IMG/VR virus record: IMGVR_UViG_3300040751_001712
Location: 1-64,000 of that record
DNA from: a virus
Strand: one strand, 5' to 3'
Length of the DNA: 64,000 nucleotides
Made by a program: the position numbers and the translations under genes. Below are positions 174-21,303 of this stretch, piece by piece. Under the pieces are notes generated by a model that saw nothing but the letters and a program-made list of their open reading frames with translations, had not been told where the DNA came from and did no database searches. Numbering within the stretch: position 1 is the first letter of the stretch; every line of letters starts with the position of its first letter.

Positions 174-2555
174 ATGAAAACCTACAACCTACTAATAGAA
201 TCTAAATTAGAAGAGCTTATAAATACCTTAAATGAAGAAGTATTTAATTTTAAAGGTCTTGACGATGACGCAAAAGATAGAATATTTTCTATATTTAAGG
301 ATTCTTATGAAAAATCATTAGGCACATCTTGGTCTAAGGATAAGTTCTTAAGTAGAGCAAACAACTGGGAGTTTTATGGAACAGAGAAAGGTTTTGTAGC
401 AGTAAGACCTCAAAGGTCAGGTCTATATAAGTTAGTAGGCGTTGCAGGTAATATGCGAGATATTTTAAAAGGATTAAATGAATTAGAATCTAAGAATGTT
501 CCTGTTTGGGGGATGGTAAGTTCCGATATAAAGTCTATGGCTGAAAAGAAAGGGTTTAAAACTCCTTCCAAGTTAATGTTAAAGATGATTTATAAGTTTA
601 TACCTAAAAGCGTTTTTGGTGGAGTTGATACTCAAATAAATAAGGATGGTAGTATAACTTTAAAATACTCAGATGTTGGTGACGCAAAAAAATATTTTAT
701 CGGTAATGATAAATATTTTCAAAAGATAAAGAAGGATATAATGCCTTCTTTAAAAGATAAGTTAAAGTTATTTGAGGACATTACAGCAGGTAGGATGATA
801 GTATATCATAGAACTGAAAGTTATAAAGAAGTGCCTAAAGGAGTTGCTGCTGATGGTTGGAGGATAGGTCACGGTGATTACTATGGTCCTGGAATTTATA
901 CTAACTATAAGTTTGAAGGAACTCAAACGAGTTATTCTAAAAACTATGGTGATATAATAATAGAGTCGAGAGTTTTAAACTTAAAAGATTTTTTAATATT
1001 AGATAAAGAACCTGCTAAAAAAGTGTATGGAACTGACTACTCTGTAGAGTCTCAGCTTAAAAAAATACTTAAAGGTAAGTGGAATACTTACAAAAATACT
1101 GAAGAGGTAAGAACTCTTATTACTAAAATGAAAGATTGGCCAGAAAAACCTGGAGAAATATATAAAAAGTTTTATGATTCAAGTAAAAAAGATGTTGTAC
1201 CATATTTTAGAGGAGTAGTATATGATGGATACAGGGATGCTTATACTTGTATTATATATGATAGAAACAATGTCGAGCCGTTAAGATACAGTTTAGATGA
1301 TGGTAAAACTTGGACATTGATTAATAATAAAAATATTCTAAAAAGAATAAAATCTGGTAAATTTAAAACTAAAAATTTACGCAACATTCATCTTATGAAC
1401 AAAGTTGGATTAGAAAAACTTGAGGATATAGATGTAAACGATATAAAGAAACTTCCAAAAAATGAGTTAGATTATTTTATTGACAAGGTTTCGGATATTA
1501 GTCAATATATTAGTAGTGATATCTATAATGTTTTACCAAAAGATAAAAAACAATCTTACATAGAAAAGAAAGTTGAAAAAGGCTATGAGATATCAGACGA
1601 ACATTACGAAGATGCTTCTGACGAATTAAAAAAATTATATATAAAAAAGATAGCTGAAAAAGGCCATCCTCTAACAGACCAACAATACGAAGATGCTTCT
1701 GACGAATTAAGAAAATTATATATAGAAAATAGAGTTAAAGATGGGTTTTATCTAACAGACCAACAATACAAAAATACTTCTGACGAATTAAAAAAGTTTT
1801 ATATAGAAAATATGGCTAAAAGTAGCTATAATCTACCAAACGAACTATACAAAGATGCTTCTGACGAATTAAAAAAATTATATATAGAAAAGAGAGTTGA
1901 AAAAGGCTATGATTTAACAGACCAACAATACGAAGATGCTTCTGACGAATTAAGAAAATTATATATAGAAAAGAGAGTTAAAGATGGGTTTTATCTAACA
2001 AACGAACAATACAAAGATGTTTTTGACGAATTAAAAAAATTATATATAGAAAAGAGAGTTGAAAAAGGCTATGAGATATCAGACCAACAATACGAAGATG
2101 CTTCTGACGAATTAAAAAAGTTTTATATAGAAAAGATGGTTGAAATAGGCTATACTCTATCAGACCAACAATACGAAGATTCTTCTGACGAATTAAAAAA
2201 ATTATATATAGAAAAGATAACTGAAAGAGGGTTTCTTCTATCAATCCAACAATACAAAAATTCTTCTGACGAATTAAAAAAGTTTTATATAGAGAAAACA
2301 GTTGAAAATGGGAATTTTCTAACAAACCGACAATATAATGATTCTTCTGACGAATTAAGAAAATTATATATAGAGAAAAGAGTTGAAAATGGGTATCATC
2401 TCGGAGACCAACAATACAACAATTCTTCTGACGAATTAAAAAAATTATATGTAGAAAAGACAGTTGAAAATGGGGGTTTTCTAACAAACCAACAATTACA
2501 AGATTCTTCTGAAGAATTAAAAAAGTTTTATATAGAAAAGAAAAAGAATACTTAA
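174..2555 (+). CDS. ADP-ribosyltransferase-like protein with GNAT-like N-terminus and 27-residue repeat array
   Basis: 793 residues in three parts. Residues about 20-140 read like a degenerate GNAT fold (FYGTEKGFVAVRP, then PVWGMVSSDIKSMAEKKGF). Residues about 205-290 carry IVYHRT, then GDYYGPGIYT and a following aromatic-rich strand. This order of His and G-x-G-x-Y-x-T is seen in ADP-ribosyltransferases and PARP-like folds, which transfer ADP-ribose from NAD+ to a target. From about residue 475 to the end there are 12 tandem 27-residue units of the type QQYEDASDELKKLYIEKRVE, with one degenerate unit before them. The repeats are charged and predicted helical. I do not recognise their family. 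T4-like phages inject ART enzymes (Alt, ModA, ModB) to modify host proteins, so an injected effector is a reasonable inference. The catalytic Glu was not identified. Confidence 0.6.
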   Translation: MKTYNLLIESKLEELINTLNEEVFNFKGLDDDAKDRIFSIFKDSYEKSLGTSWSKDKFLSRANNWEFYGTEKGFVAVRPQRSGLYKLVGVAGNMRDILKGLNELESKNVPVWGMVSSDIKSMAEKKGFKTPSKLMLKMIYKFIPKSVFGGVDTQINKDGSITLKYSDVGDAKKYFIGNDKYFQKIKKDIMPSLKDKLKLFEDITAGRMIVYHRTESYKEVPKGVAADGWRIGHGDYYGPGIYTNYKFEGTQTSYSKNYGDIIIESRVLNLKDFLILDKEPAKKVYGTDYSVESQLKKILKGKWNTYKNTEEVRTLITKMKDWPEKPGEIYKKFYDSSKKDVVPYFRGVVYDGYRDAYTCIIYDRNNVEPLRYSLDDGKTWTLINNKNILKRIKSGKFKTKNLRNIHLMNKVGLEKLEDIDVNDIKKLPKNELDYFIDKVSDISQYISSDIYNVLPKDKKQSYIEKKVEKGYEISDEHYEDASDELKKLYIKKIAEKGHPLTDQQYEDASDELRKLYIENRVKDGFYLTDQQYKNTSDELKKFYIENMAKSSYNLPNELYKDASDELKKLYIEKRVEKGYDLTDQQYEDASDELRKLYIEKRVKDGFYLTNEQYKDVFDELKKLYIEKRVEKGYEISDQQYEDASDELKKFYIEKMVEIGYTLSDQQYEDSSDELKKLYIEKITERGFLLSIQQYKNSSDELKKFYIEKTVENGNFLTNRQYNDSSDELRKLYIEKRVENGYHLGDQQYNNSSDELKKLYVEKTVENGGFLTNQQLQDSSEELKKFYIEKKKNT
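1596..2552 (+). repeat. 81-bp in-frame tandem repeat array (12 units)
   Basis: Twelve direct repeats with an 81-base period (for example the core gcttctgacgaatta at 1695 recurs at 1776 as acttctgacgaatta) encode 27-residue units of the preceding protein. Units differ mainly at the loop positions (for example YEISD, FYLTD, YDLTD), while the core SDELKK(L/F)YIEK is kept. The last unit is truncated by the stop codon. Confidence 0.9.
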
Positions 2556-2573
2556 AAAATAATCCATAAAAGT

Positions 2574-3131
2574 ATGATAAAACTCAAAGAACTATTACCA
2601 ATATCAGAAGGTCTACAATACCACATAGACAATAAGATACCTATTATGGAAAACATCTATAGGTATTCTTCTGATAAATTTTTGGAATTATTTAGAGAAT
2701 GTCGTACCTTACACAATAAAGGTAAAATACAGTTATGCGAAGAGGACATAAATCTATTAGAAACCACAGATATTGGAGAATACGGACTATACGAAGGAAA
2801 CAAAGTTCCTCTCGATATGCCAATGGTAGAAGCGGAGTATCAAGGAAAAGACGTTCAATTAGGAAAGCCAAAGAGAGGGGGTAGTAAGAAGTTTTATGTG
2901 TATGTAAGAGACCCACAATCCAAAAACATAAAAAAAGTATCTTTTGGTGCTAAAGATGGGGGTGGTAAGTTGTCTGTAAAGTTAGATGACCCAAAGAGAA
3001 GAAAAGCATTTGCAGATAGGCACGATTGTAAAAATAAAAAAGATAGGACATCTCCAGGATATTGGTCATGCAGAATCCCAAGATTTTGGAAAACCCTGGG
3101 AGGAAGTAAAAACTATTCAGGATATTGGTAG
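2574..3131 (+). CDS. conserved phage protein with basic C-terminal domain, function unknown
   Basis: 185 residues. The C-terminal half, from about residue 100, has the pattern KFYVYVRDP-KKVSFGAKDGG-KLSVKLDDPKRRKAFADRHDC-KDRTSPGYWSCRIPRFWK. I associate this basic domain with uncharacterised proteins of T4-like and other large phages. It contains a paired Asp-Pro/Arg-Arg turn, two Cys and a Gly-Tyr-Trp end. The N-terminal half has no recognised domain. The gene follows the ART-like protein by 18 bases and is followed two bases after its stop by the next ATG. No function can be stated. Confidence 0.6.
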   Translation: MIKLKELLPISEGLQYHIDNKIPIMENIYRYSSDKFLELFRECRTLHNKGKIQLCEEDINLLETTDIGEYGLYEGNKVPLDMPMVEAEYQGKDVQLGKPKRGGSKKFYVYVRDPQSKNIKKVSFGAKDGGGKLSVKLDDPKRRKAFADRHDCKNKKDRTSPGYWSCRIPRFWKTLGGSKNYSGYW

Positions 3132-3133
3132 AT

Positions 3134-3412
3134 ATGGAACAACCTTTTGAAGAGCTAATAGGAACGTATGATAAGTCCGTAAGAGTTTTCAGTAGTGATA
3201 TAGATGAAGAAGATTTAGTATGGCATAGAGATAGAGAAGATAGGCTATTACAAATTGTTGGGGAGATGAGCGATTGGCAAATACAATTAGAAAACCAACT
3301 ACCTCAAAACATAGATGGGGTGTTTATACCTAAAGAAACTTACCACAGACTCATAAAAGGAAGTGGTTCTGTTATAATTGAAGTTAGAAAGTATGTGGAT
3401 ACACAAGAATAA
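3134..3412 (+). CDS. small hypothetical protein
   Basis: 92 acidic residues starting MEQPFEELIGTYD. I chose the ATG at 3134 because it sits two bases after the previous stop (tag-at-atg), a spacing used repeatedly in this genome. A longer reading from a TTG at 3125 would overlap the previous gene. There is no recognisable domain, signal peptide or membrane segment. The 3' end overlaps the next gene by 20 bases, which suggests translational coupling. Confidence 0.6.
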   Translation: MEQPFEELIGTYDKSVRVFSSDIDEEDLVWHRDREDRLLQIVGEMSDWQIQLENQLPQNIDGVFIPKETYHRLIKGSGSVIIEVRKYVDTQE

Positions 3413-3797
3413 GCCTGTAGATTCTTTAGAAGATATGCCTAAAGGTGCTATAGGTTTTATATATGAGATAACTCATATTCCTTCCGATAAAAAGTATATA
3501 GGTAAAAAGATATTACACCACAATAAAAAGTTACCTCCTTTAAAAGGCAAAAAGCGAGCGAGAAGAGTAATAAAAGAATCAGACTGGAAAACATACTATG
3601 GATCTAATGATGAAATTAAATCTATGATAAAAGAAGGTAAGCAGTCTGAATTTACAAGAAAAATACTTATATTCGCAACTAGTAAAAAACAGTTATCTTA
3701 TTTAGAGGCTAAAGAACAGTTTAAAAGAGGGGTTTTAGAAAGAGATGACTATTTTAACACTAACATATTAGGAAGGTTTTATAGTAAAGATGTATAA
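3393..3797 (+). CDS. GIY-YIG-type nuclease (Seg-like), putative
   Basis: 134 residues from the ATG at 3393 (a TTG at 3378 would add five residues). The N-terminal domain reads GFIYEITHIPSDKKYIGKK, matching the paired 'G-x-I-Y' and 'Y-I-G' strands of GIY-YIG nucleases. It is followed by a basic segment, W-K-T-Y-Y-G-S and a helical stretch with a Glu-containing LSYLEAKEQF. This pattern is known from Seg-like homing endonucleases and free-standing repair-like nucleases of T4-like phages. It is small and lacks an obvious extra DNA-binding region, so it may be a conserved phage nuclease rather than a homing enzyme. It sits between a small gene and primase. Confidence 0.65.
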   Translation: MWIHKNKPVDSLEDMPKGAIGFIYEITHIPSDKKYIGKKILHHNKKLPPLKGKKRARRVIKESDWKTYYGSNDEIKSMIKEGKQSEFTRKILIFATSKKQLSYLEAKEQFKRGVLERDDYFNTNILGRFYSKDV

Positions 3798-3802
3798 AAG
3801 TT

Positions 3803-4714
3803 ATGCAAAATCAGAACTCTCAACTAGATATACTTAAAAAGTATCTAGGAGATATGACCCAAAAGAAGGATAATAATTATGCTTTTCATTGTCCTTTTTG
3901 TAATCACCACAAGCAAAAATTGGAGGTAGATTTAGATACTGGTCTATGGAACTGTTGGGTATGCCATACGAGGGGGAAAGGTGTTTCTTATCTTTTGAAA
4001 AAGATGCGGGCAGGGAAAGACGATATACATAAGATAAAAACATACGAAAACTATAATAATAAGGTTTTTGACTTTTCTGAGCAAGTGATAACTCTTCCCG
4101 ACCACTTTTCTCTACTGACTAAAGAAGAGGACAGTGTTATTGCTAAAATATGTTACGATTATCTTTTATCTAGAGGTCTAACTGATGAAGATATTATACG
4201 GTATAAAATAGGATATATTTATTCTGGAAAAAATTTAGGTAATATAGTCATACCTAGTTACAGTAGTTCTGGGTATCTTAACTACTATGTGTTTAAGAAT
4301 CCTAAAACGGGCATGTACTTAAACCCTAAACACCCTAAAAGTCAGGTATTTTTCGATATATTTATTAACTGGAACGATCCTATTGTTATAGTAGAAGGCA
4401 TGCTAGATGCTATATCTGTTCGTTATAACTCTATTCCTCTGTTGGGTAAGATTCTTAACAAGAGGATAAAGAATAAGATACTAAAATCCAGCAACTCTAC
4501 TTACTATATCTGTCTAGATGGTGATGCTAAGAGTTCTGTTATGGCTATAGCTCAGTATCTTATTAGTATAGGTAAGACTGTTTTTAATGTAGAGTTGCCC
4601 TATAATGAAGACCCTTCATCTCTTGGACACAAAAAAGTTTGGGAGATGATCAAAAACTCAAAACTAATAACAGAAAAAGATATTCTATTCAGTTCTTTAC
4701 TAGAAAGTCTATAA
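3803..4714 (+). CDS. DNA primase (CHC2 zinc finger and TOPRIM)
   Basis: 303 residues. Residues 30-54 form a zinc-binding site (C30-x2-C33 and C51-x2-C54), and the surrounding residues fit the DnaG-type CHC2 finger. The TOPRIM domain is visible as VIVEGMLDAIS (Glu199) followed by YICLDGDAKSS (Asp239, Asp241), the residues that bind the catalytic metals. The protein makes RNA primers for lagging-strand synthesis and would pair with the gp41-type helicase encoded at 58120. At 303 residues it is about half the size of bacterial DnaG, since it lacks a helicase-binding C-terminal domain. This is close to the size of T4 gp61. The start follows the previous stop by five bases. Confidence 0.92.
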   Translation: MQNQNSQLDILKKYLGDMTQKKDNNYAFHCPFCNHHKQKLEVDLDTGLWNCWVCHTRGKGVSYLLKKMRAGKDDIHKIKTYENYNNKVFDFSEQVITLPDHFSLLTKEEDSVIAKICYDYLLSRGLTDEDIIRYKIGYIYSGKNLGNIVIPSYSSSGYLNYYVFKNPKTGMYLNPKHPKSQVFFDIFINWNDPIVIVEGMLDAISVRYNSIPLLGKILNKRIKNKILKSSNSTYYICLDGDAKSSVMAIAQYLISIGKTVFNVELPYNEDPSSLGHKKVWEMIKNSKLITEKDILFSSLLESL

Positions 4715-4720
4715 AAATTA

Positions 4721-4728
4721 TATTTATA
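4721..4728 (+). promoter_or_regulatory. putative late promoter, TATTTATAGTAAA
   Basis: TATTTATA followed by GTAAA lies 13 bases before the ATG of the giant fibre gene. The same 13-mer recurs before genes at 12553, 27142, 44664 and 46294. It is the reverse complement of the T4 late core TATAAATA. Assignment is by recurrence and position only. Confidence 0.6.
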
Positions 4729-4741
4729 GTAAAGAAACTAA

Positions 4742-7700
4742 ATGGCTATAAAGTCTTTTATAGATACAGGTGCTATATGGGATGGAGATACTTATAGTGT
4801 AAAATACTTTGGAGTATCTAAAAACTTTACAGAACTAAAGTTAGGTAAAAACACCATTACCTTATCTCCTAGTGTAGCTATAGTACCAGGAACTAAGTTA
4901 GAAGTAGAAGTTTTAGATAGAAATGGTAATAGAGTACAGGTAGAGTATCCTAATCAAATTACTCCTAATGGCTCTAATATCTTACATATAACTATAACAG
5001 AGGAGACATTATCAGGGGTTTGTAGGTTTTTTATAAGAGGTACTGCTTTTTATGATGCTGATACTGGTCAGCAGTTAGATACTTCTTATCCTAATGTTAT
5101 TTGGAGAGGTATATCTTCTATAAAAAAATTAGAAGATGAAGAGACTCCAGAAGATCCTGAAGATTTAGTATTTGAAAAAGATAAGAAAGATATTTCTGTA
5201 AATGTGCAGTCTAAGTGTCTTCCTTATCAGGATAAAGGTGGTGTAGAAAGGCCTACAGAGCATACTGGTACAGGCACTTTAACTTACAATTCTGTAACAA
5301 CTTCTAGCACCTTTTCTCCGAATATAGCAGATAAGCCTACTACAAAATCTAGTACTTCCAGCAGACCTATTTCTCAAGTAAATAACTCTCAATCTAATAC
5401 CACTTTAGGAAGTCCTACATCTAATTCTGATGGGTTTCCTACTTTGGTTAGTTCTGCGGCTGAGTTTACGGCTGATATGGTAGGGTCTACTATTACCATA
5501 ACTCCTAACATAAATTCTTTTGTACCTACTCAATTACTGTCTGTTATAGGAGTATTACCAGATTTTACCGCTACTATAATAGAAGTATTAAACTCAACTA
5601 CTGTACGAATAGATAACTCTTTTTCTTATAGTAATCCGCAGCTGAGTCTTTTCGTTCAAGATTTTACATCTTCTTCGTATACTATAAAGTATAATAAGTC
5701 TGTTTCTACTACAGGAGGTCAAAAAGTTACTTGCTATGCCCAGCTTTGTTTTGATAATGTAGCGACTTCTAATGGACAGGTAGATAAAGTGAGAGTGTCT
5801 GCTAAGCCTGTGGGTGCTGTAGGAGATGCTATGTTGTTGGGAGATTTTGATGTGCAGTATCCGAATAAAATGCAGGATACAGGTTCTTTTACAATGGATC
5901 CTAGGACTGGTATAGAGTATAAAAGTGCGGGAGATGTATCATCTAGTGCAGATGTATCTAATTATTATACAGCAGAAACATATCAAACAGTAGCAACAGC
6001 TACCGATTCTTTAAGTGACTTCAACTATCAGTCACTAGGTTCTGCTCCAACACCTACCCATAGTGATGATAAACTCATGCACAGTTTGTCTACATCAGCT
6101 CCAGTAGATGGTACTCAGGTAACGGCTATATCTGTAAAAGATCAGTATTTAGGATCTGCAAAAGCAGGGAATGTTTATAAAATAATTTTAAACGCTCATT
6201 CTAGAAAAGACGCTACAGGAAAGACACCTAAAGCACAACTATATATTAGTGGACCAGCTGTAGAAGAGTTTACACAAACTTCTAATACTTTTGGAACTCT
6301 TATAGAGACAATAACTGGGGGAGATGGAGAGACTCAAACTGGACTAGAATACAAGTTTACAGCAGCTTCAGACTCAGATAAAGTAAAACTGTATATCGTT
6401 TTAGATATAGGTACTTGGGATTTTTCTAATATTAAATTAGAACCTTCTTCAAAAACTAATAATACTCCTAATGAGTTTTGTACTCTTGTTCCTTTAGACA
6501 GTCTGCCAGTAAATAAGATAAATGAGGAGTATGTTTTTGTAGTAGATTTTATAGGTAAAAACGGTAAACCTGCTAATATAAAATTAACTACTCAGAGTAT
6601 AACTCTTAATAGTGACGTTACTATAGATGAGTCTTTGGTAATAAATACTTTTAATAGTAGTACCTTAATACAAACGGCTATATCTGGTTCTAGTATTTTT
6701 TATATGTCTGAAGGAGGGGATGAGACTGATGTTAAAACAGAGGATACGTTTTCTTTTGTAGAGGGGGGTGCTATAGATATGTCTTTAAATGTTGGCGGAA
6801 AGTCTCTAACAATATGTCATGAAGACACCTCTACTCAAAGTAGTATAGTTTCAAATGGAAGTCTTTACATAAAAAGTATATGTTTAGATACTTACGGACA
6901 TGTTACTTGTATAGAAACAGAAGCTACTAGCTCAATAGGGGATACTGAAGGAGGGTCTCCTACAGATGACTATGTTTCTGGAGCTTCCTTTAATACAAGT
7001 AATGGAGAGTTAACTTTAAACAGGATATTAGGAGGAAGTGTTACAGTAGACTTAGATGGTAGATATGCTACTTCTGACTCCGATACGGTAACTACCGTAG
7101 GTACTTCTTCTTTAGGAAGCTCTGGAACTATAACTTTGTTGGGGAGCGGTTCAATAGAACTCTTTGAACAAGCGACTGACTCTGGTAGTATTATAACTAT
7201 ATACTCTGATAGTAACCCTTTAAATGTATCAGGAAGTCTAATATCAGGATCTTTTGACGGAGCAACAGCTACTATAGAGTTGTTTAGACAGTCTACTTCT
7301 TCTGTATTTGTTCCTATTTCTTCATTAGATACGAACAATTATGTCTGTGGAGTGTCTTTTAACACTACCAACGGGTGTTTAACTTTAAATAGATTAGGTC
7401 TTTCTGATTTATCAGCTTGTTTAGATGGTAGATATTCTACTTCTCAAGCATCTAATTGTACAATAACATTACAAGGAGACGGTACTGGTATAAATACAGT
7501 GATCGGTGATTTTACACTAGACCAAACTTCTAATGAGACTTTAACTGTCTCACATAAAGATACATCAACACTTTTAGGATCATACGGTACAAATGGCATC
7601 TCCTCCATAACCGTTGATTCACTCGGACACATTACTGCTATATCCACTGCAACCTACTGTACTACAGATACAAATAACTACGTCTGCAATGCTTCTTTTA

Positions 7701-8872
7701 ATACAAGTAATGGAGAGTTAACTTTAAACAGATTAGGACTAGGTGATGTAGTTGTAAATTTTGACGGAAGGTACTGTACTACGGATACAGATACAAATAA
7801 CTACGTCTGCAATGCTTCTTTTAATACAAGTAATGGAGAGTTAACTTTAAACAGGATATTAGGAGGAAGTGTTACAGTAGACTTAGATGGTAGGTACTGT
7901 ACTACGGATACAGATACAAATAACTACGTCTGCAATGCTTCTTTTAATACAAGTAATGGAGAGTTAACTTTAAACAGGATATTAGGAGGAAGTGTTACAG
8001 TAGACTTAGATGGTAGGTACTGTACAACAGTTCCTACTGTGAACGATCCTACAATAAGCGTAACAGGTTTAGATGGTGTGTGTGTCTATGGGGACAATTC
8101 CTTTACTTTAAACCAATCAACACCTGGATGTGTAACTATATGTTCTGTAGACAGTCTTTGTTCTGTTACTGTGAGAGGGTCAACTACAGCTCAAACGGTT
8201 GCTTTCCAAAACTGTGCGTATATTTTTTGCTCTACAGCATTAAACTCTAATATACTACCTCCATCTTCTTTAGGTGTAGGTTTAGTAGGTCCTTTTTATG
8301 CGTGCAATCTAACCGCAGAGCAGTCTCCTACTCATATATTAGCTATAAATAACCCTACAGGAACTTATCAAGGAGGTAGTGCAGAAGTTGTATATACATC
8401 TTTAGATCAATTAAATGCTCAAATATCTGGGAGTATACAGACAAGTCTTGGTACTGATCCTGGAACTTTAGATACTACTACTACAAATATTATATCGGAT
8501 GGGGTTCATTGTCATGCTATAACTACAACTCAAACAGATACTGCTTCGACTATAGTTCAAACTAATGCTTGTGGAGAAATAACTGCTGCTAACTTTATAA
8601 CAACCTCTGATAAGAGATTAAAGAAAGATATAGAGCCTATAAAAAGTGGGCTAGATGTACTACAAAAATTTAACTCATATACTTATCTAAAAAAAGGTAT
8701 ATGTGACGCTGGTTTTATAGCACAAGAGGTGTGTTCGGTATTACCTTATTCTGTACAGGAAGATAGTGAAGGTTTTTTAACTATAAAAGAAAATCATATA
8801 TTAGCTCACATGCATAAGGCTATACTTGAACTAAATAATAAATTAAATTGTTTGGAAACTAAATTAGGTTAA
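4742..8872 (+). CDS. giant tail fibre/adhesin with C-terminal S74 chaperone domain
   Basis: 1376 residues. The first roughly 150 residues form a beta-rich head, probably the virion attachment region. A long Ser/Thr/Gly-rich beta region follows, with repeated units of the type NYVCNASFNTSNGELTLNR-GGSVTVDLDGRY at residues about 740-1090, two of them identical at DNA level. The C-terminus (residues about 1290-1376) starts TTSDKRLKKDIEPI and contains GFIAQEV and a terminal coiled coil. That is the peptidase S74 intramolecular chaperone of endosialidase-type fibres, which trimerises the fibre and is then self-cleaved before the Ser of SDKR. The protein is unusually rich in Cys for an extracellular fibre. 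A late-type promoter precedes it, and the Thr-tract protein gene starts two bases after its stop. Confidence 0.88.
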   Translation: MAIKSFIDTGAIWDGDTYSVKYFGVSKNFTELKLGKNTITLSPSVAIVPGTKLEVEVLDRNGNRVQVEYPNQITPNGSNILHITITEETLSGVCRFFIRGTAFYDADTGQQLDTSYPNVIWRGISSIKKLEDEETPEDPEDLVFEKDKKDISVNVQSKCLPYQDKGGVERPTEHTGTGTLTYNSVTTSSTFSPNIADKPTTKSSTSSRPISQVNNSQSNTTLGSPTSNSDGFPTLVSSAAEFTADMVGSTITITPNINSFVPTQLLSVIGVLPDFTATIIEVLNSTTVRIDNSFSYSNPQLSLFVQDFTSSSYTIKYNKSVSTTGGQKVTCYAQLCFDNVATSNGQVDKVRVSAKPVGAVGDAMLLGDFDVQYPNKMQDTGSFTMDPRTGIEYKSAGDVSSSADVSNYYTAETYQTVATATDSLSDFNYQSLGSAPTPTHSDDKLMHSLSTSAPVDGTQVTAISVKDQYLGSAKAGNVYKIILNAHSRKDATGKTPKAQLYISGPAVEEFTQTSNTFGTLIETITGGDGETQTGLEYKFTAASDSDKVKLYIVLDIGTWDFSNIKLEPSSKTNNTPNEFCTLVPLDSLPVNKINEEYVFVVDFIGKNGKPANIKLTTQSITLNSDVTIDESLVINTFNSSTLIQTAISGSSIFYMSEGGDETDVKTEDTFSFVEGGAIDMSLNVGGKSLTICHEDTSTQSSIVSNGSLYIKSICLDTYGHVTCIETEATSSIGDTEGGSPTDDYVSGASFNTSNGELTLNRILGGSVTVDLDGRYATSDSDTVTTVGTSSLGSSGTITLLGSGSIELFEQATDSGSIITIYSDSNPLNVSGSLISGSFDGATATIELFRQSTSSVFVPISSLDTNNYVCGVSFNTTNGCLTLNRLGLSDLSACLDGRYSTSQASNCTITLQGDGTGINTVIGDFTLDQTSNETLTVSHKDTSTLLGSYGTNGISSITVDSLGHITAISTATYCTTDTNNYVCNASFNTSNGELTLNRLGLGDVVVNFDGRYCTTDTDTNNYVCNASFNTSNGELTLNRILGGSVTVDLDGRYCTTDTDTNNYVCNASFNTSNGELTLNRILGGSVTVDLDGRYCTTVPTVNDPTISVTGLDGVCVYGDNSFTLNQSTPGCVTICSVDSLCSVTVRGSTTAQTVAFQNCAYIFCSTALNSNILPPSSLGVGLVGPFYACNLTAEQSPTHILAINNPTGTYQGGSAEVVYTSLDQLNAQISGSIQTSLGTDPGTLDTTTTNIISDGVHCHAITTTQTDTASTIVQTNACGEITAANFITTSDKRLKKDIEPIKSGLDVLQKFNSYTYLKKGICDAGFIAQEVCSVLPYSVQEDSEGFLTIKENHILAHMHKAILELNNKLNCLETKLG
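7658..8020 (+). repeat. 41-residue tandem repeats in the fibre gene (two identical 123-bp copies)
   Basis: Units 7775-7897 and 7898-8020 appear identical base for base. Unit 7658-7774 is a 117-base diverged copy. Looser copies occur near 6967-7066 and 7333-7437. Each encodes a Cys-containing beta unit ending in DLDGRY. Perfect identity of two units implies recent duplication. Confidence 0.88.
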
Positions 8873-8874
8873 CA

Positions 8875-10263
8875 ATGCCCGTCCCTACTTCTGGTGATTT
8901 TAAAATGTTTGATCCTAATGCTAATGATCCAGAGAGCATTGAAGGTGCTATTAATTCGCATGGTGGAGATACAAGTACATCAGATAGTTTTACAGACCTA
9001 ATTTCTGTTTCTGTTGCTTCTTATTATGATCCTGTATATGCAGGTACTATAAATACTCCTTCTACTGATGTATCTGCTTCTGAACAGTTTAGAAATTATC
9101 CTAATATATGCAAATGGGTAAGCTTATACAAGCTAAACAGTACTGACTGTACTTTGGATACCTCTATTCTTTATGTTGATTTTTCTGTTTGTTCTGGTAG
9201 TTTGAATCCCTATACTGTTGGAGATGTGTGGGGAGATGGTGCTTTTTGCTATGAGATACAGTCATTTGGCAGTCCTCCTGCCCCTAGATTCTTTTCTACA
9301 CCTACTAATATAGAGTTAGAGCCTATGACTCCATACGGTAGCTGTGAGGAGTGCTATGGTATAACTACAACTACTACGACAACATCTGCACCTACTACAA
9401 CTACTACGACTACCACCACAACTTGTACACCAGCAGGAACTCCTCTAGGCACGAGGAGCGAGTGTGTAGGTTTTGATGAGTATGTTTATAACGTATATGC
9501 TGACGGGAACTGTGGAACTTATGAAGTTTACTCATATACTATACCAAATAGTACTAATTGTGGGTATACTACCACTACTACTACTACAACTACTACGACA
9601 ACAATAGCGCCTTTCAAAATATACTACAGACTATTAAGATACTTCTCAGATTGTTCAAATGATATAATACTAAGACAAGGGTACAGATGGAATTACGAGA
9701 CACAGCCATCTATAAATGATTATGTGACTTTAGGAGATGGGTATTGCTACAGAATAACATCAGGAACTCCTGTAGGTACAGATCTAGGACAAATACAATC
9801 TACTTTCTATAGTGATTGCTTTACTTGTTACGGAATAACTACTACTACGACAACAGACGCACCTACAACTACTACAACTACTACGACTACTACGACAACA
9901 GACGCACCTACAACTACTACAACTACTACGACAACAGACGCACCTACAACTACTACAACTACTACGACTACTACGACTACAGCTGCACCTACAACTACGA
10001 CTACTACGACTACAGCTGCACCTACAACTTATAAGTACCTTATAGGAAGATGTACCTTGTTAGATCAGCAAAGAGTAGTAGAATCTACAGTGCTTCTAAC
10101 TCCTAGCCCGACAGGAGACGGATCTTCTGTTACAATCGTTGGAGGAGGTTCTCAATGCTGGGCAGTATTAAGCACAAGTACAGGCACTGCTACAGAAATA
10201 GTAGATCAGGTATTCAGTTCATGTGCTATTTGCGAAGGTGGAGGCGAAGGTGGAGGCACTTAA
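8875..10263 (+). CDS. Thr/Pro-tract, Cys-rich virion surface protein
   Basis: 462 residues with no signal peptide. Three Cys-containing beta modules are separated by pure Thr tracts. Module ends are similar: SCEECYGIT, DCFTCYGIT and SCAICEGGG. Thr tracts occur at residues about 163-184, 232-245 and 322-384. The longest is punctuated by DAP, DAP, DAP, AAP and AAP, giving a mucin- or extensin-like stretch. The N-terminus (MPVPTSGDFKMFD, then DPESIEGAINSHGG) resembles phage structural proteins that bind the particle. It directly follows the giant fibre and precedes two glycosyltransferases and a hydroxylase, so the tracts are plausible O-glycosylation targets. That target assignment is inference. 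No catalytic domain is seen. Confidence 0.75.
   Translation: MPVPTSGDFKMFDPNANDPESIEGAINSHGGDTSTSDSFTDLISVSVASYYDPVYAGTINTPSTDVSASEQFRNYPNICKWVSLYKLNSTDCTLDTSILYVDFSVCSGSLNPYTVGDVWGDGAFCYEIQSFGSPPAPRFFSTPTNIELEPMTPYGSCEECYGITTTTTTTSAPTTTTTTTTTTCTPAGTPLGTRSECVGFDEYVYNVYADGNCGTYEVYSYTIPNSTNCGYTTTTTTTTTTTTIAPFKIYYRLLRYFSDCSNDIILRQGYRWNYETQPSINDYVTLGDGYCYRITSGTPVGTDLGQIQSTFYSDCFTCYGITTTTTTDAPTTTTTTTTTTTTDAPTTTTTTTTTDAPTTTTTTTTTTTTAAPTTTTTTTTAAPTTYKYLIGRCTLLDQQRVVESTVLLTPSPTGDGSSVTIVGGGSQCWAVLSTSTGTATEIVDQVFSSCAICEGGGEGGGT
9838..10026 (+). repeat. ACN-codon microsatellite encoding Thr/Pro tract
   Basis: About 190 bases of act/aca/acg triplets interrupted by gac-gca-cct or gct-gca-cct (Asp-Ala-Pro or Ala-Ala-Pro). 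The block 'acagacgcacctacaact' recurs at spacings that differ by multiples of three. The tract length is therefore likely to vary by slippage or recombination without breaking the frame. Confidence 0.85.
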
Positions 10264-10278
10264 TTTAAAATAAAGATT

Positions 10279-11199
10279 ATGATCAGGTTTATAATGGCGC
10301 AGCCCGCAATAAAATACTACTCATGGCAAGTAGAAGTTTTATTGAATAATATGATAGAGATAGGGATAAACCTAAATTACGTTGATGTTGTATGTTATGT
10401 AGAAGATACTATACCTAAAGAATGGGATAAATTAAGACATGGTTATGCTGCAAGATTCTTCTTTTATAAAGATACTAGAGAGACCAAAAACTATATAAGC
10501 AGTATCAGGCCTAATATCTTAAAACAGCATTGGGAAAATCACCCGTATCTGGAAAACGAAGTGATTTTTTACCACGATTGCGACATAATCTTTACAAGAC
10601 CTCTTGATTTAGACAAGTACAAAAAGGACGATACCTGGTACGGTAGTGATACTAAATGGTACATAAGTTATGACTACATTATAGGAAAAGGAAATGATAT
10701 CTTTAACAAAATGATAGATATTATAGACATTGATCCAGACATTATTATAAAAAATAATGATAACAGTATAGGCGCACAATATATTATGAAGAATGTAGAC
10801 AGGGAGTATTGGGAAGATGTAGAAAAAGACTCCGAAAATCTGTTTGTAGAGGTAACAAGTTTAAACAGTGAAAAGAAAAAAAAGGATCCAGATTATCACG
10901 AGATACAAATATGGTGTGCAGATATGTGGGCAGTTTTATGGAACGCTTGGAAAAGAGGCTATATTACTAGATGTGATCCAGATTTAGATTTTAGTTGGGG
11001 GACATCAACAGAAGAAGACTATTATAAATACAATATAATGCATAATGCGGGGGTTACTGATGATAAAGGGGGTCTATTTTTTAAAGCAAAGTTTACAAAT
11101 AAATTTCCATACAATTTAAACTTGTCTATACGAAATAACACTGCGTCAAAAAAGTATTATGAGTGGGTGCAGAAAATAGAGAAAAAAACAGTTTTATAA
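10279..11199 (+). CDS. glycosyltransferase-like protein with DxD motif (GT-A type)
   Basis: 306 residues. Strand-turn VIFYHDCDIIFTRPLDL contains the D100-C-D102 motif expected to bind a metal and a nucleotide sugar in GT-A enzymes. Later segments, DFSWGTST and YNIMHNAGV, supply conserved polar residues and a His at the end of the fold. The overall pattern recalls the eukaryotic peptidyl-serine/hydroxyproline glycosyltransferase type more than bacterial cell-wall enzymes, but I hold that only loosely. It starts 15 bases after the Thr/Pro-tract protein, which makes that protein the natural candidate acceptor. The protein has no signal peptide, so it would act in the cytoplasm on newly made virion protein. 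Confidence 0.65.
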   Translation: MIRFIMAQPAIKYYSWQVEVLLNNMIEIGINLNYVDVVCYVEDTIPKEWDKLRHGYAARFFFYKDTRETKNYISSIRPNILKQHWENHPYLENEVIFYHDCDIIFTRPLDLDKYKKDDTWYGSDTKWYISYDYIIGKGNDIFNKMIDIIDIDPDIIIKNNDNSIGAQYIMKNVDREYWEDVEKDSENLFVEVTSLNSEKKKKDPDYHEIQIWCADMWAVLWNAWKRGYITRCDPDLDFSWGTSTEEDYYKYNIMHNAGVTDDKGGLFFKAKFTNKFPYNLNLSIRNNTASKKYYEWVQKIEKKTVL

Positions 11200-11231
11200 A
11201 ATATTAAGTAATATTATAGATATCTTTGTGG

Positions 11232-11867
11232 ATGTTAAAAAATATACATCAAATATGGTTAGGTAATAAAAGAATACCTAAACACATAAAAGAATATATG
11301 CAAGAAATAGAAAAAGAGCATAAAGAATACAATTACTTTTTTTGGAATGATAGTAATATACCTGATATGCCTAAAATTTTAAGATCAGTATTTGATTCTT
11401 TAGACCATCCTGCGATGAAAAGTGATTTACTAAGAGTGTACGTTCTTTATCTGCATGGCGGTATTTATTTAGATGTTGATTACAAATTATTAGCAAATAT
11501 AGATAATCTTAAGTTAGATAGTAAAGATGACTATATAGTATATCAGAAAAAATCCAAAGTAGAAGACTTTAATTCATGTCTCTATATTTCAAACAAGAAA
11601 GGTAAGTTTGTATCATATATGTTAAAAACAATTAATGAAAAAAAAATGTGGTTAGGACCTCATTGGTATGCAAAATGTATATATGATTATTTAGGGCTAG
11701 AGAAACATTGTGATTATAAAGATATTTTAAAAAAATGTGATGAAAATAATATAGGGTACATTGATTGGGACTATTTTGATAGTAACATTGCTAAACATAC
11801 TTTTATGGCATCATGGTATCCAGATTCATTTTGGAAGAAAAAGTTTGATGAAGATAGTTATGAGTAA
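11232..11867 (+). CDS. GT32-type glycosyltransferase
   Basis: 211 residues from ATG 11232 (TTG at 11226 would add two). It begins IHQIWLGNKRIPKHI and carries AMKSDLLRVYVLYLHGGIYL followed by DVD (D81-V-D83). This is the signature of the Gly_transf_sug/OCH1-like family (GT32), which uses nucleotide sugars with a metal held by the DxD motif. The conserved Ser-Asp-Leu-x-Arg helix and the Gly-Gly-x-Tyr-x-Asp-x-Asp turn are intact. A second enzyme immediately after the first glycosyltransferase suggests stepwise building of a short glycan. The acceptor cannot be read from the sequence. Confidence 0.88.
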   Translation: MLKNIHQIWLGNKRIPKHIKEYMQEIEKEHKEYNYFFWNDSNIPDMPKILRSVFDSLDHPAMKSDLLRVYVLYLHGGIYLDVDYKLLANIDNLKLDSKDDYIVYQKKSKVEDFNSCLYISNKKGKFVSYMLKTINEKKMWLGPHWYAKCIYDYLGLEKHCDYKDILKKCDENNIGYIDWDYFDSNIAKHTFMASWYPDSFWKKKFDEDSYE

Positions 11868-11906
11868 TTTTGCGAATAGTGTACTTTAATAAAATAAAAA
11901 CTATTT

Positions 11907-12497
11907 ATGGTAACATCTTATTTTTTTAAATCTAGACAAAGTAATTTTGGTAATTACTATTTTCTTAATGATGCCTTAACTAAGGACGAGATAGATAGCA
12001 TACTAACTTCTGTAGAGTATATACCCTCTCAAGACGCTATTATAGATGATAGCAGTAGAGAAACTAATATAAGAACCTCTATTATTAAATGGATACCAAA
12101 AAACCAGGATTGGGAATGGTTGTATTATAGATTATTTGATATAATGAATATTGCAAATAATTCTATGTGGAATTTAGATATAACCACTATGTTTGATATG
12201 ATACAGTATACTGAGTACTACGCTACAGAAAACGGGCATTATGATTGGCATATGGATGTAGGATCTGGGGAGGCTTCTTATAGGAAAATTTCTATTTCTG
12301 TACAAATATGCGAGGCAGATGATTTTGAGGGAGGTGACTTACAGATGTGGTTAGGCGGTACAAGTTTTTTAACTATGCCTAAAGGTATAGGAAATGCTGC
12401 TGTTTTCCCTAGTTTTTTTATGCATAGAGTATCTCCTATCACCAGAGGAGTTAGAAAAAGTTTGGTAATGTGGGCGGGAGGAACTCCTTATAGATAA
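11907..12497 (+). CDS. 2-oxoglutarate/Fe(II)-dependent hydroxylase (prolyl hydroxylase/PKHD type)
   Basis: 196 residues. The double-stranded beta-helix core shows HYDWHMDVG (iron ligands H115 and D117), then EGGDLQMW, then FPSFFMHRVSPITRGVRKS with the distal iron ligand H173 and the 2-oxoglutarate-binding R183. The arrangement matches PKHD-type/prolyl-4-hydroxylase enzymes, which hydroxylate Pro, Lys or other side chains using O2 and 2-oxoglutarate. T4-like cyanophages carry related genes of mostly unknown substrate. Here the gene closes a block of a Thr/Pro-rich protein and two glycosyltransferases, so hydroxylation of the Pro residues between the Thr tracts is an attractive but untested role. 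Confidence 0.88.
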   Translation: MVTSYFFKSRQSNFGNYYFLNDALTKDEIDSILTSVEYIPSQDAIIDDSSRETNIRTSIIKWIPKNQDWEWLYYRLFDIMNIANNSMWNLDITTMFDMIQYTEYYATENGHYDWHMDVGSGEASYRKISISVQICEADDFEGGDLQMWLGGTSFLTMPKGIGNAAVFPSFFMHRVSPITRGVRKSLVMWAGGTPYR

Positions 12498-12552: not shown

Positions 12553-13170
12553 ATGAAAAGGAGACAACTTTCAGAAGCAGACTTAAAAAAATTAGGACAA
12601 AAGATAAACAGAGGTTTTGATTTTTTAAAGCAAGGGTTAGAAACTAAAGAATTAACTAAAGATAAAGTATTAGCATTATTGCAAGACTTACTCCATTCTT
12701 TATATAATACAGGTAAAATAACAAAGCAGCAGGTATTAAATATTACACGTGATTTACCTAGTCAAAAGCCGAGACCTAATCAGCAGCAGTCTATGGCTGA
12801 AAGAAAGTTTACGAATGAAGACGTTAGAGAATTATATGAATTGTTGACTATTTTAAAAGAGATAAGAGAAGAAGAAGAAAAAACTCCTGCTGAGGATCCA
12901 AAAGATGTTGAAGCTAAGGAAGAAGAGCCTAAAGAGGAAGAACCAAAAGAAGAGCCGAAAGATGAGGAACCAAAAGAAGAAGAGCCTGAGTCTAGCGAAT
13001 TAGTGTCTGCTTTGTTTAAAACTACTGCTGGTAAAAATTTTAAAAGATTAGTAGGTAATATTTCAAATCAAGAAGAAAAGGCTGAGGTTATTATTGACTT
13101 GATTAAGGAATTACCGAAGGCTGATAGTCAAACGTTAAGTAATAAGCTGAGAAGATATTTTTCTAATTAA
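12553..13170 (+). CDS. acidic Lys/Glu/Pro-rich protein, function unknown
   Basis: 205 residues. Residues about 1-75 look helical and basic (DLKKLGQKINRGFDFLKQGL). Residues about 110-150 are a low-complexity Glu/Lys/Pro linker of the type KEEEPKEEPKDEEP, and the end is a short helical domain. There is no recognised family. Its place just before terminase genes, behind a late-type promoter, suggests a virion or assembly role. The charged linker could be a flexible tether in an internal head or scaffold-like protein. Confidence 0.55.
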   Translation: MKRRQLSEADLKKLGQKINRGFDFLKQGLETKELTKDKVLALLQDLLHSLYNTGKITKQQVLNITRDLPSQKPRPNQQQSMAERKFTNEDVRELYELLTILKEIREEEEKTPAEDPKDVEAKEEEPKEEEPKEEPKDEEPKEEEPESSELVSALFKTTAGKNFKRLVGNISNQEEKAEVIIDLIKELPKADSQTLSNKLRRYFSN

Positions 13171-19584: not shown

Positions 19585-21303
19585 ATGAAAGATTTATTAG
19601 TAGAATATATACCATTTAATATTTCTCCTAGTATAATACAGGAGAGTATTTCTATTAATGGCAAGATACTAGTCTCTGGAGTATTACAAAGAGCTGGAGC
19701 AAAGAATCAGAATGGTAGAGTTTACCCTAAAGATGTTTTACAAAGAGAAGCTGAAAAGTACAATCAGGAGTTTGTAGCTCAAAATAGAGCATTGGGTGAA
19801 TTGGACCACCCAGAGTGCCTAACATCTTCAGCTGAATTAATGACAACAGATGGATGGAAGTATCTTAAAGATTTGTCTGGTTCTGAAAAAGTTTTTACTT
19901 TAAATAGATTTACTAATGAAATAGAAGTAAAGTCTATAAATAAAGTAATAAATGAGCCGTATAAAGGTAAGATGGTGGTAATAAAAGGTAAAAACATTAA
20001 TACGACTGTAACTCCTAATCATAAATTTATAGTCACAGATAGAAATGGTGTGAACACTTTTATTACTGCACAAGAAATATTAGATTTATCTAAAAAAATA
20101 AAGGTATCTCATTTAGCTATACCTAAAACAGGTATTTGGAGAAAAGATGCTTATGAAGATTCTTTTACTATAGATCCTGTAGAAACTAATAAAAGGTCTT
20201 CTAAGAAAAGATCTGAAGAGCAATCTAAACCTTTAGTTCTGAACACTAAAGCTTTTTTCGCCTTTTTGGGATTCTATTTTGCTGAAGGAGGTGTGGATAA
20301 ATCAGGGAGATCTAATTCTATAACTTTTACTCAAAACAAAGGAGAAGTTTTAGATGAGTTTAAGTCTATACTAAAAGAATTAAGTGATGAACTACATTGG
20401 AAAGAGTATCCCAAGTCTTTGAAAAGCGTTATGTTAAAAGTATCTGATCAGAGATTGCATACTTTTTTAAAAGATTTTGGGAATGTGTATACTAAAAGAA
20501 TACCTGAATTTATAAAAGATAGCCATCCAGAATTATTAGATATTTTCTTAGAGTGGTATATAAAAGGAGATGGTACTATAGTTAGGAGTAATGGGTATGA
20601 TAGGTGTTCTGTTTTTACTGTTTCAAAAGGTATGATAGAAGACTTAAATGAGATATTAATTAAAGTAGGATCTTCTGGGGTTATAAAAGAGCAAGTGTCT
20701 AAAAAAGATTATAATTTTGCTGGAAGAGTGATACAACATAAAAATAAAAAGACGCTATATAGGCTTTGGTTTGAGAAGTCTAAATACATTCATTTAGATT
20801 TTAGATTTATAGATGTTGAAGAAGTAGATTACGAGGGTAATGTTTATTGCATAAATACAGATAATGAAACTTTTTACTGTAGAGATAATAAAAAAAGTTT
20901 TTGGAGTGGTAATTCATCTGTAGTTAATTTAGCAAATGCTTCCCATAATGTTATAAAAATGTGGTGGGAAGGAGATGATCTTATGGGTAAGGTAGAGGTA
21001 CTCCCTACACCTTCTGGTAATATTCTAAAATCATTACTAGAGTCTGGAGTTACTTTGGGTATTAGTTCTAGAGGAGTAGGTTCTGTAAAAGAAGTATTTA
21101 CAGAAGATAGGCAGAAGTATTTGCAAGTACAAGAAGATTTCGAATTAGTATGTTTTGACTTTGTTTCTAACCCTTCGACTCATGGAGCATTTATGAATCC
21201 TGTTAGAGAAAGTGTGGGAGATGCAAACAACAAGACAGCAAAAATAAATAAACTAATCACTGATATAATATGTGATATAGGGGAATATTGTCCCTGTAAC
21301 TAA
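19585..21303 (+). CDS. gp21: prohead core protease (gp21-like), interrupted by an intein
   Basis: 572 residues, of which 206 are host protein after removal of a 366-residue intein. Extein landmarks are NGRVYPKDVL, the catalytic His in GELDHPE (His75) and the catalytic Ser in TLGISSRGVG (about residue 494-495), the arrangement of the T4 gp21/U9-type prohead proteases. The enzyme cleaves scaffold and capsid precursors during head maturation. Its substrates gp22 and gp23 are the next two genes. The intein is inserted three residues after the catalytic His, so the protease should be inactive until splicing is complete. Confidence 0.93.
   Translation: MKDLLVEYIPFNISPSIIQESISINGKILVSGVLQRAGAKNQNGRVYPKDVLQREAEKYNQEFVAQNRALGELDHPECLTSSAELMTTDGWKYLKDLSGSEKVFTLNRFTNEIEVKSINKVINEPYKGKMVVIKGKNINTTVTPNHKFIVTDRNGVNTFITAQEILDLSKKIKVSHLAIPKTGIWRKDAYEDSFTIDPVETNKRSSKKRSEEQSKPLVLNTKAFFAFLGFYFAEGGVDKSGRSNSITFTQNKGEVLDEFKSILKELSDELHWKEYPKSLKSVMLKVSDQRLHTFLKDFGNVYTKRIPEFIKDSHPELLDIFLEWYIKGDGTIVRSNGYDRCSVFTVSKGMIEDLNEILIKVGSSGVIKEQVSKKDYNFAGRVIQHKNKKTLYRLWFEKSKYIHLDFRFIDVEEVDYEGNVYCINTDNETFYCRDNKKSFWSGNSSVVNLANASHNVIKMWWEGDDLMGKVEVLPTPSGNILKSLLESGVTLGISSRGVGSVKEVFTEDRQKYLQVQEDFELVCFDFVSNPSTHGAFMNPVRESVGDANNKTAKINKLITDIICDIGEYCPCN
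19816..20913 (+). other. intein with LAGLIDADG endonuclease in gp21
   Basis: 366 residues from Cys78 (CLTSSAELMTTDGWK) to Asn443 (FWSGN), followed by Ser as the +1 nucleophile. Splicing block B is TVTPNHKF. Two LAGLIDADG-type motifs, FLGFYFAEGGV and FLEWYIKGDGT, indicate a homing endonuclease. The residue before the terminal Asn is Gly, where most inteins have His. Block F reads VYCINTDNETFYCRDNKKSF, which otherwise fits the family. Confidence 0.93.

Follow-up and report, generated by a model that had tools for sequence, protein, structure and literature searches.

A predicted virion glycosylation cassette acting on a threonine-tract protein in a T4-like phage

We analyzed the first 64,000 nucleotides (nt), hereafter the window, of the 102,022-bp IMG/VR virus record IMGVR_UViG_3300040751_001712, a T4-like myovirus with gp23-type capsid, tail sheath, S77 prohead protease, terminase, and portal genes. 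Between a tail fibre gene of the S74 type and a conserved gene lie four + strand genes (Table 1), which encode a threonine (Thr)-tract protein, a glycosyltransferase of PHROG 4417 (GTa), a GT32-type glycosyltransferase, and a 2-oxoglutarate (2OG)-Fe(II) oxygenase. We predict, with a probability of about 0.82, that these genes form a virion glycosylation cassette acting on the Thr-tract protein. The prediction draws on the observed gene content, active-site residues, folds, co-occurrence of GTa with Thr tracts, paired gain and loss of both, and a cassette swap in sister phages.

The Thr-tract gene begins 2 nt past the stop of the fibre gene, and the gaps within the block are 15, 26, and 39 nt. 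A first-pass annotation made from the letters alone had described four closely spaced open reading frames (ORFs) here: a virion-type protein with Thr tracts punctuated by Pro (DAP, AAP), a DxD glycosyltransferase, a GT32-type glycosyltransferase, and a hydroxylase-like enzyme with intact iron ligands. All four ORFs were confirmed on the + strand, and the tracts, the DxD, the GT32 assignment, and the exact numbering of the iron ligands and of R183 were borne out. The virion-type label agrees with the context and the relatives of the tract protein; a direct database match for it was not found.

The tract protein has 462 amino acids (aa), with 115 Thr, 41 Ser, and 28 Pro, and shows the dense Thr/Ser tracts with interspersed Pro of a mucin-like domain. 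Eight Thr runs of 6–12 residues hold 76 Thr, and the punctuation between them reads SAP, IAP, DAP (three times), and AAP (twice). A conserved N-terminal module (residues 1–76) and Cys-containing modules make up other parts of the protein. When the window is translated in six frames, every run of at least six Thr falls inside this gene, and so do all 28 (ACN)7 matches of the 102,022-bp record. The Thr codons in the tracts are mixed (ACT 39, ACA 23, ACG 11, ACC 3), so the tract is not a pure trinucleotide microsatellite. Searches with the protein gave zero Pfam or NCBIfam matches, and tblastn against phage records was also empty.

GTa is a full-length member of PHROG 4417 (E 3.3e-67, residues 3–301), which is annotated as "unknown function" or "prophage pi2 protein 34" (PHROG database). 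Its D100 and D102 were invariant across 47 relatives, and H255, G258, and K269 were invariant as well. Because GTa had no sequence-level match in Pfam, NCBIfam, or PDB, and its sequence did not place it in CAZy GT8 or GT24, its structure was predicted. The AF2 model (pLDDT 96.8) had its best Foldseek matches in UGGT, LgtC, and glycogenin (E about 1e-6, TM about 0.5), and WbbM was also matched. The model thus predicts a GT-A-fold glycosyltransferase that is GT8/GT24-like, which is a statement of fold and not a family assignment.

A scan of IMG/VR with GTa yielded 295 relatives, of which 80 were retained for locus counts. A Thr/Ser tract was present in 46 of the 76 genes immediately upstream of GTa and in 30 of 248 genes further upstream, versus 4 of 361 downstream (immediately upstream vs. 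downstream p 5e-37, uncorrected for relatedness). After de-duplication at 80% identity, the tract was immediately upstream in 27 of 34 loci and anywhere in the locus in 30. The upstream tract proteins belong to several unrelated families; one is the major tail protein Phage_tail_2 (PF06199/PHROG 1407), which has a long C-terminal Thr/Ser tract and is directly followed by GTa. At the level of whole records, (ACN)7 occurred in 42 of 50 GTa-bearing records and in none of 31 GTa-less TerL relatives (Fisher p 3e-15, again uncorrected for relatedness). These controls were picked by terminase similarity, and the absence of GTa was confirmed, with a profile or on the retrieved locus, for 17 of the 31, plus others. 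Contigs of a GTa clade without an adjacent tract (G009, G011, G013, G014, G020, G038) carried tracts at other places.

We also scanned for proteins with a strict T7-AP-T5 pattern, and GTa stood beside 6 of the 34 loci found. The idea that such tracts are exclusive to GTa was rejected on this count. Tract proteins of the T7-AP-T5 type with no GTa in the stretch fetched occur in L089, L104, L106, L110, L113, L115, L116, L118, and others.

Isolated phages showed the same association. By tblastn, GTa relatives were found in 74 of 50,697 phage records, mainly from Lactobacillus, Enterococcus, Staphylococcus, and Lactococcus, and also from Chryseobacterium and Arcanobacterium. Seventeen isolates, with hosts that included all six genera, were inspected, and in all 17 the sequence up to about 1 kb before GTa held Thr tracts, whereas GTa-less control phages had a tract in none of eight cases (7–10 kb examined). 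Many of the isolate tracts form the C-terminal tail of a major capsid or major tail protein, and several phages (iLp84, R9.1, phiFL1A) carry a Thr tail on both.

The closest comparison came from Lactobacillus phages. In iLp84 and R9.1, GTa is sited between the capsid and connector genes; iLp1308, CL1, and R26.9 have no GTa at that site, and their major tail protein is about 90% identical. The capsid protein ends in ...VLVPTTTTTTTSK in iLp84 and in ...VLVPGKTTTTTTTSHV in R9.1, versus ...VLIPKP in the three phages that lack GTa there. The major tail protein likewise ends in poly-Thr in iLp84 and R9.1 and has no such end in the other three. Two structural genes gain the same kind of tail along with one enzyme gene, which is difficult to account for if the enzyme does not act on the tail.

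In some phages the tract occupies a frame that follows a structural gene and overlaps or adjoins it (SA2, PT1-4, TPWB06, and, beside the capsid gene, Planchet and VFW). A poly-Thr tail in another frame was seen at the end of a major tail or capsid gene in L241 (2170–2433), and similarly in L242, L243, L084, L245, and L247. The junction in Staphylococcus phage SA2 is CCC-TAA with a +1 relation, a sequence that suggests programmed frameshifting yielding a minor decorated form.

At the locus of the window itself, tract and enzymes were exchanged together. Sister phages, with a terminase 81% identical, have an orthologue of the tract protein (41–45% identity overall) with the N-terminal module and the Cys motifs in common; it carries TPTPTPIPTATPTP repeats in place of poly-Thr. 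Behind this orthologue, at the same site, stands another cassette, with a PF11397 GlcNAc-type transferase (1.6e-58), for which a PDB sequence search gave no match, and a protein called GT4-like by eye (no Pfam match). Its middle ranges from no further enzyme to several (GT25-like, GT11 fucosyltransferase-like, and unassigned) and differs among the closely related contigs L126, L132, L137, L139, and L208. The cassette also carries a UDP-galactopyranose mutase (3e-73). In relatives further removed (L146, L153, L166), tract and glycosyltransferases are both missing from the site.

One sister phage of the TP-repeat type (L266; G052:C1:22000-33000) carries, at 1995–7390, a gene for a collagen-like GxQ-repeat fibre and, behind it, three genes of the 2OG-oxygenase-like type and one that is sulfotransferase-like.

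The gene after GTa in the window belongs to PF04488 (E 5e-14, 53.2 bits vs. a cut-off of 23). Its ORF has 213 aa from TTG, and an ATG two codons downstream is the likelier start. This GT32-type enzyme had no tblastn match in phage records, and a viral-contig scan with it alone retrieved nearly only the near-identical record. Elsewhere, GTa is followed by a 290-aa conserved protein, FkbM-like methyltransferases, GT2, GT32, radical SAM, or a 2OG-type protein, a varied set that is expected if glycan elaboration varies. A 207-aa 2OG-like enzyme stands directly after GTa in seven loci (L006–L009, L019, L021, L032) and has a weak match, under the cut-off, to NCBIfam TIGR04324, "sporadic carbohydrate cluster 2OG-Fe(II) oxygenase" (7e-14); a PDB profile search with this family gave no match. 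Radical SAM/SPASM proteins of about 343 aa adjoin GTa homologues in five loci (L025, L039, L058, L073, L005), and a further peptide or sugar modification by them is possible.

The last enzyme of the block matched PF13640 (E 2.5e-10, 41.6 bits vs. a cut-off of 27), and its iron triad (H115, D117, H173) and 2OG-binding R183 were invariant in six relatives. Sequence assigns it to the 2OG-Fe(II) oxygenases of the prolyl 4-hydroxylase (P4H)/PKHD type. Its PDB profile relatives are PKHD and prolyl hydroxylases (3itq/5hv0 P4H, EGLN1, 4iw3, and 5c5t/5c5u "Prolyl 4-hydroxylase"), and its fold matched PHD2 and the Pseudomonas putida P4H; against the NCBIfam PiuC/YbiX equivalog it scored 42.9 bits, where the cut-off is 143. 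A scan with the single oxygenase retrieved nearly only the near-identical record, and an alignment query retrieved 28 loci. Most of these 28 relatives have neither a tract nor a glycosyltransferase nearby, and PF13640 was found in 3 of the 50 GTa records, so the oxygenase was rejected as a fixed partner of GTa. The first-pass annotation had held that its proposal would fail if the enzymes occurred in homologous loci without a Thr/Pro-tract protein, and for the oxygenase this is largely what we found. Three neighbourhoods differ: in L079 a Thr-tract/poly-Pro protein and GTa flank a related oxygenase, in L005 several oxygenases surround GTa, and in L086 a 46%-identical oxygenase is part of a glycosyltransferase cluster adjoining a collagen-like Gly-Pro fibre.

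Two substrates were weighed for this enzyme. By sequence and fold it is a good prolyl-hydroxylase candidate, and prolyl hydroxylation is plausible. In that version of the glycosylation reading, the oxygenase would hydroxylate Pro in DAP and AAP, and hydroxyproline and/or Thr would then be glycosylated, as in extensins or mucins. The PKHD and prolyl hydroxylases among its profile and fold relatives argue for this, as do the tract/poly-Pro protein in L079 and the collagen-like fibre in L086. We rate it as less likely than not, given the scarcity of PF13640 in GTa records, the mostly tract-free and glycosyltransferase-free loci of its relatives, and a best sequence match to PiuC and not to P4H. 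Moreover, the TP-repeat cassettes lack an oxygenase, although PF13640 matched at two other places in one of these phages. The other reading, which we rank slightly ahead at somewhat below even chances, is that the target of the oxygenase is the attached sugar or something else (fibre or host protein) and not Pro. It agrees with the weak TIGR04324 family directly behind GTa in seven loci, with the plausible tailoring set of FkbM-like methyltransferases, GT2, and radical SAM proteins in GTa loci, and with the tandem 2OG-like enzymes and sulfotransferase-like gene that follow the collagen-like fibre in L266, even though the window enzyme falls in the P4H/PKHD branch and outside the sugar-cluster family.

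DNA and host serotype are common targets of phage glycosyltransferases (PMC12619734), and on this precedent the glycosyltransferases of the window might act on DNA or the host envelope, with the Thr tracts as flexible spacers. We consider this quite unlikely, since GTa tracks poly-Thr tails on two virion proteins of close relatives and most lineages have a tract gene immediately upstream of it. Still less probable, to the point of being nearly negligible, is that the tract is a functionless artefact of repeat expansion: slippage can generate low-complexity sequence, but the Thr codons are mixed, and tracts on unrelated proteins recur next to the same enzyme family, a non-random distribution that contradicts an artefact.

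Several observations weigh against the cassette as a virion glycosylation system. It is a prediction from sequence, and the glycan is putative. The window tract protein has no database match, and GT32 and the oxygenase are inconstant partners of GTa (6 and 3 of 50 records, respectively, by PF04488 and PF13640). Tracts are missing from a small number of GTa records (L034, L076, L005, and, within 4 kb, three Bacteroidota genome loci), 28 of the 34 strict T7-AP-T5 loci show no GTa in the stretch fetched, and the TP-repeat orthologue with a short tract in L209 has no cassette behind it.

For the glycosylation cassette we propose the following course. The Thr-tract protein, encoded directly after the tail fibre, would be a virion surface protein whose poly-Thr stretches serve as modular glycosylation tags. 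GTa would put the first sugar on Thr in the tracts, GT32 would probably add a second, and the oxygenase may oxidise the product at the Pro of the DAP/AAP punctuation or at the sugar. This would give the particle a mucin-like bristle close to the fibre, with a role in shielding or altered surface binding. We infer Thr as the acceptor residue, and the sugar identity, order of action, and function of the coat belong to the same proposal. The same enzyme accompanies poly-Thr tails on capsid and tail proteins in relatives, and the cassette is swapped in sisters; the coat is therefore likely under diversifying selection. A wider claim, that PHROG 4417 reads poly-Thr as a portable tag for any virion protein and that the window cassette also hydroxylates tract Pro as a mucin/extensin analogue, appears unlikely to hold in full. 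The first-pass annotation had proposed both hydroxylation and glycosylation of a fibre-associated protein: glycosylation has strong support from the pairing, the joint gain and loss on two proteins, and the swap of tract with cassette, while hydroxylation is only plausible.

Table 1. Features of the proposed cassette and its borders in the window
Feature	Position	Strand	Basis
Tail-fibre-like protein, 1376 aa, C-terminal S74 endosialidase chaperone domain; upstream operon partner	4742..8872	+	PF13884 E 2e-9; PHROG tail fibre matches
Thr-tract protein, 462 aa; proposed glycosylation substrate	8875..10263	+	ORF; Thr-Pro-repeat orthologues in sister phages
First Thr-tract block, T7-SAP-T10	9364..9423	+	Translation
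12-Thr run, then IAP	9568..9603	+	Translation
Main tract block, T6-DAP-T12-DAP-T9-DAP-T12-AAP-T8-AAP	9838..10023	+	Translation
GTa, 306 aa, predicted GT-A-fold glycosyltransferase, PHROG 4417, DxD D100/D102; proposed poly-Thr glycosyltransferase	10279..11199	+	Profile, conservation, fold
GT32-type glycosyltransferase, PF04488; proposed second sugar transferase	11226..11867	+	Pfam
2OG-Fe(II) oxygenase, PKHD/prolyl-hydroxylase type, 196 aa, H115 D117 H173 R183	11907..12497	+	Pfam, conservation, fold
Conserved gene bounding the cassette; swapped sister-phage cassettes stop at the same gene	12553..13170	+	Locus comparison

Other features of the window include a SegE-type GIY-YIG endonuclease gene a little upstream of the block (3378–3797; PF19835 E 2e-33), and intein/LAGLIDADG insertions in the prohead protease and ribonucleotide reductase genes (19585–21303 and 60515–63268).

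These results give a testable function to PHROG 4417, which is present in phages of Bacteroidota, Firmicutes, and one actinobacterial host; the link to poly-Thr tracts is added here to a family of which the window GTa is a full-length member. They suggest that virion glycosylation is common outside mycobacteriophages, encoded as a swappable tag plus cassette, and largely unrecognised. Some phages with the module have close relatives that lack it, which makes it directly testable what virion sugars do in adsorption, shielding, and host range. A simple tool for bacterial O-glycosylation might also be built from the poly-Thr/GTa pair.

Parts of the system have counterparts elsewhere. Trypanosoma cruzi mucins and PF11397-type GlcNAc transferases resemble it in their poly-Thr/Pro substrates and in the PF11397 enzyme and UDP-galactopyranose mutase of the sister cassettes, a likeness of parts only. 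Viral prolyl hydroxylases exist, for example in chlorella virus PBCV-1, which has the P4H fold and the HxD...H...R residues in common with the window oxygenase and is only remotely similar to it. In open-licence papers, where absence is not proof, we found no prior poly-Thr, mucin-like, or prolyl-hydroxylase phage system, and the poly-Thr/PHROG 4417 pair, its breadth, the cassette swap, and the hydroxylase appear undescribed in that searchable literature. The first-pass remark that no phage system of this composition was described was too strong, as two papers describe for mycobacteriophages that phage glycosyltransferases glycosylate virions (PMC12619734; PMC12363180). In Che8, Corndog, and Myrna, such enzymes are reported to act on the C-termini of capsid and tail-tube subunits and to shield the virions from antibodies (Freeman et al., 2023, via PMC12619734 and PMC12363180). 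None of the 74 GTa matches among the 50,697 phage records was a mycobacteriophage, so homology was not seen at the sequence level, and a poly-Thr tag, cassette swapping, and a hydroxylase are absent from the description of that system in the two papers. As a kind of system, phage-encoded virion glycosylation is thus already known from mycobacteriophages, and the cassette proposed here would share with it the modification of virion proteins by phage-encoded glycosyltransferases.

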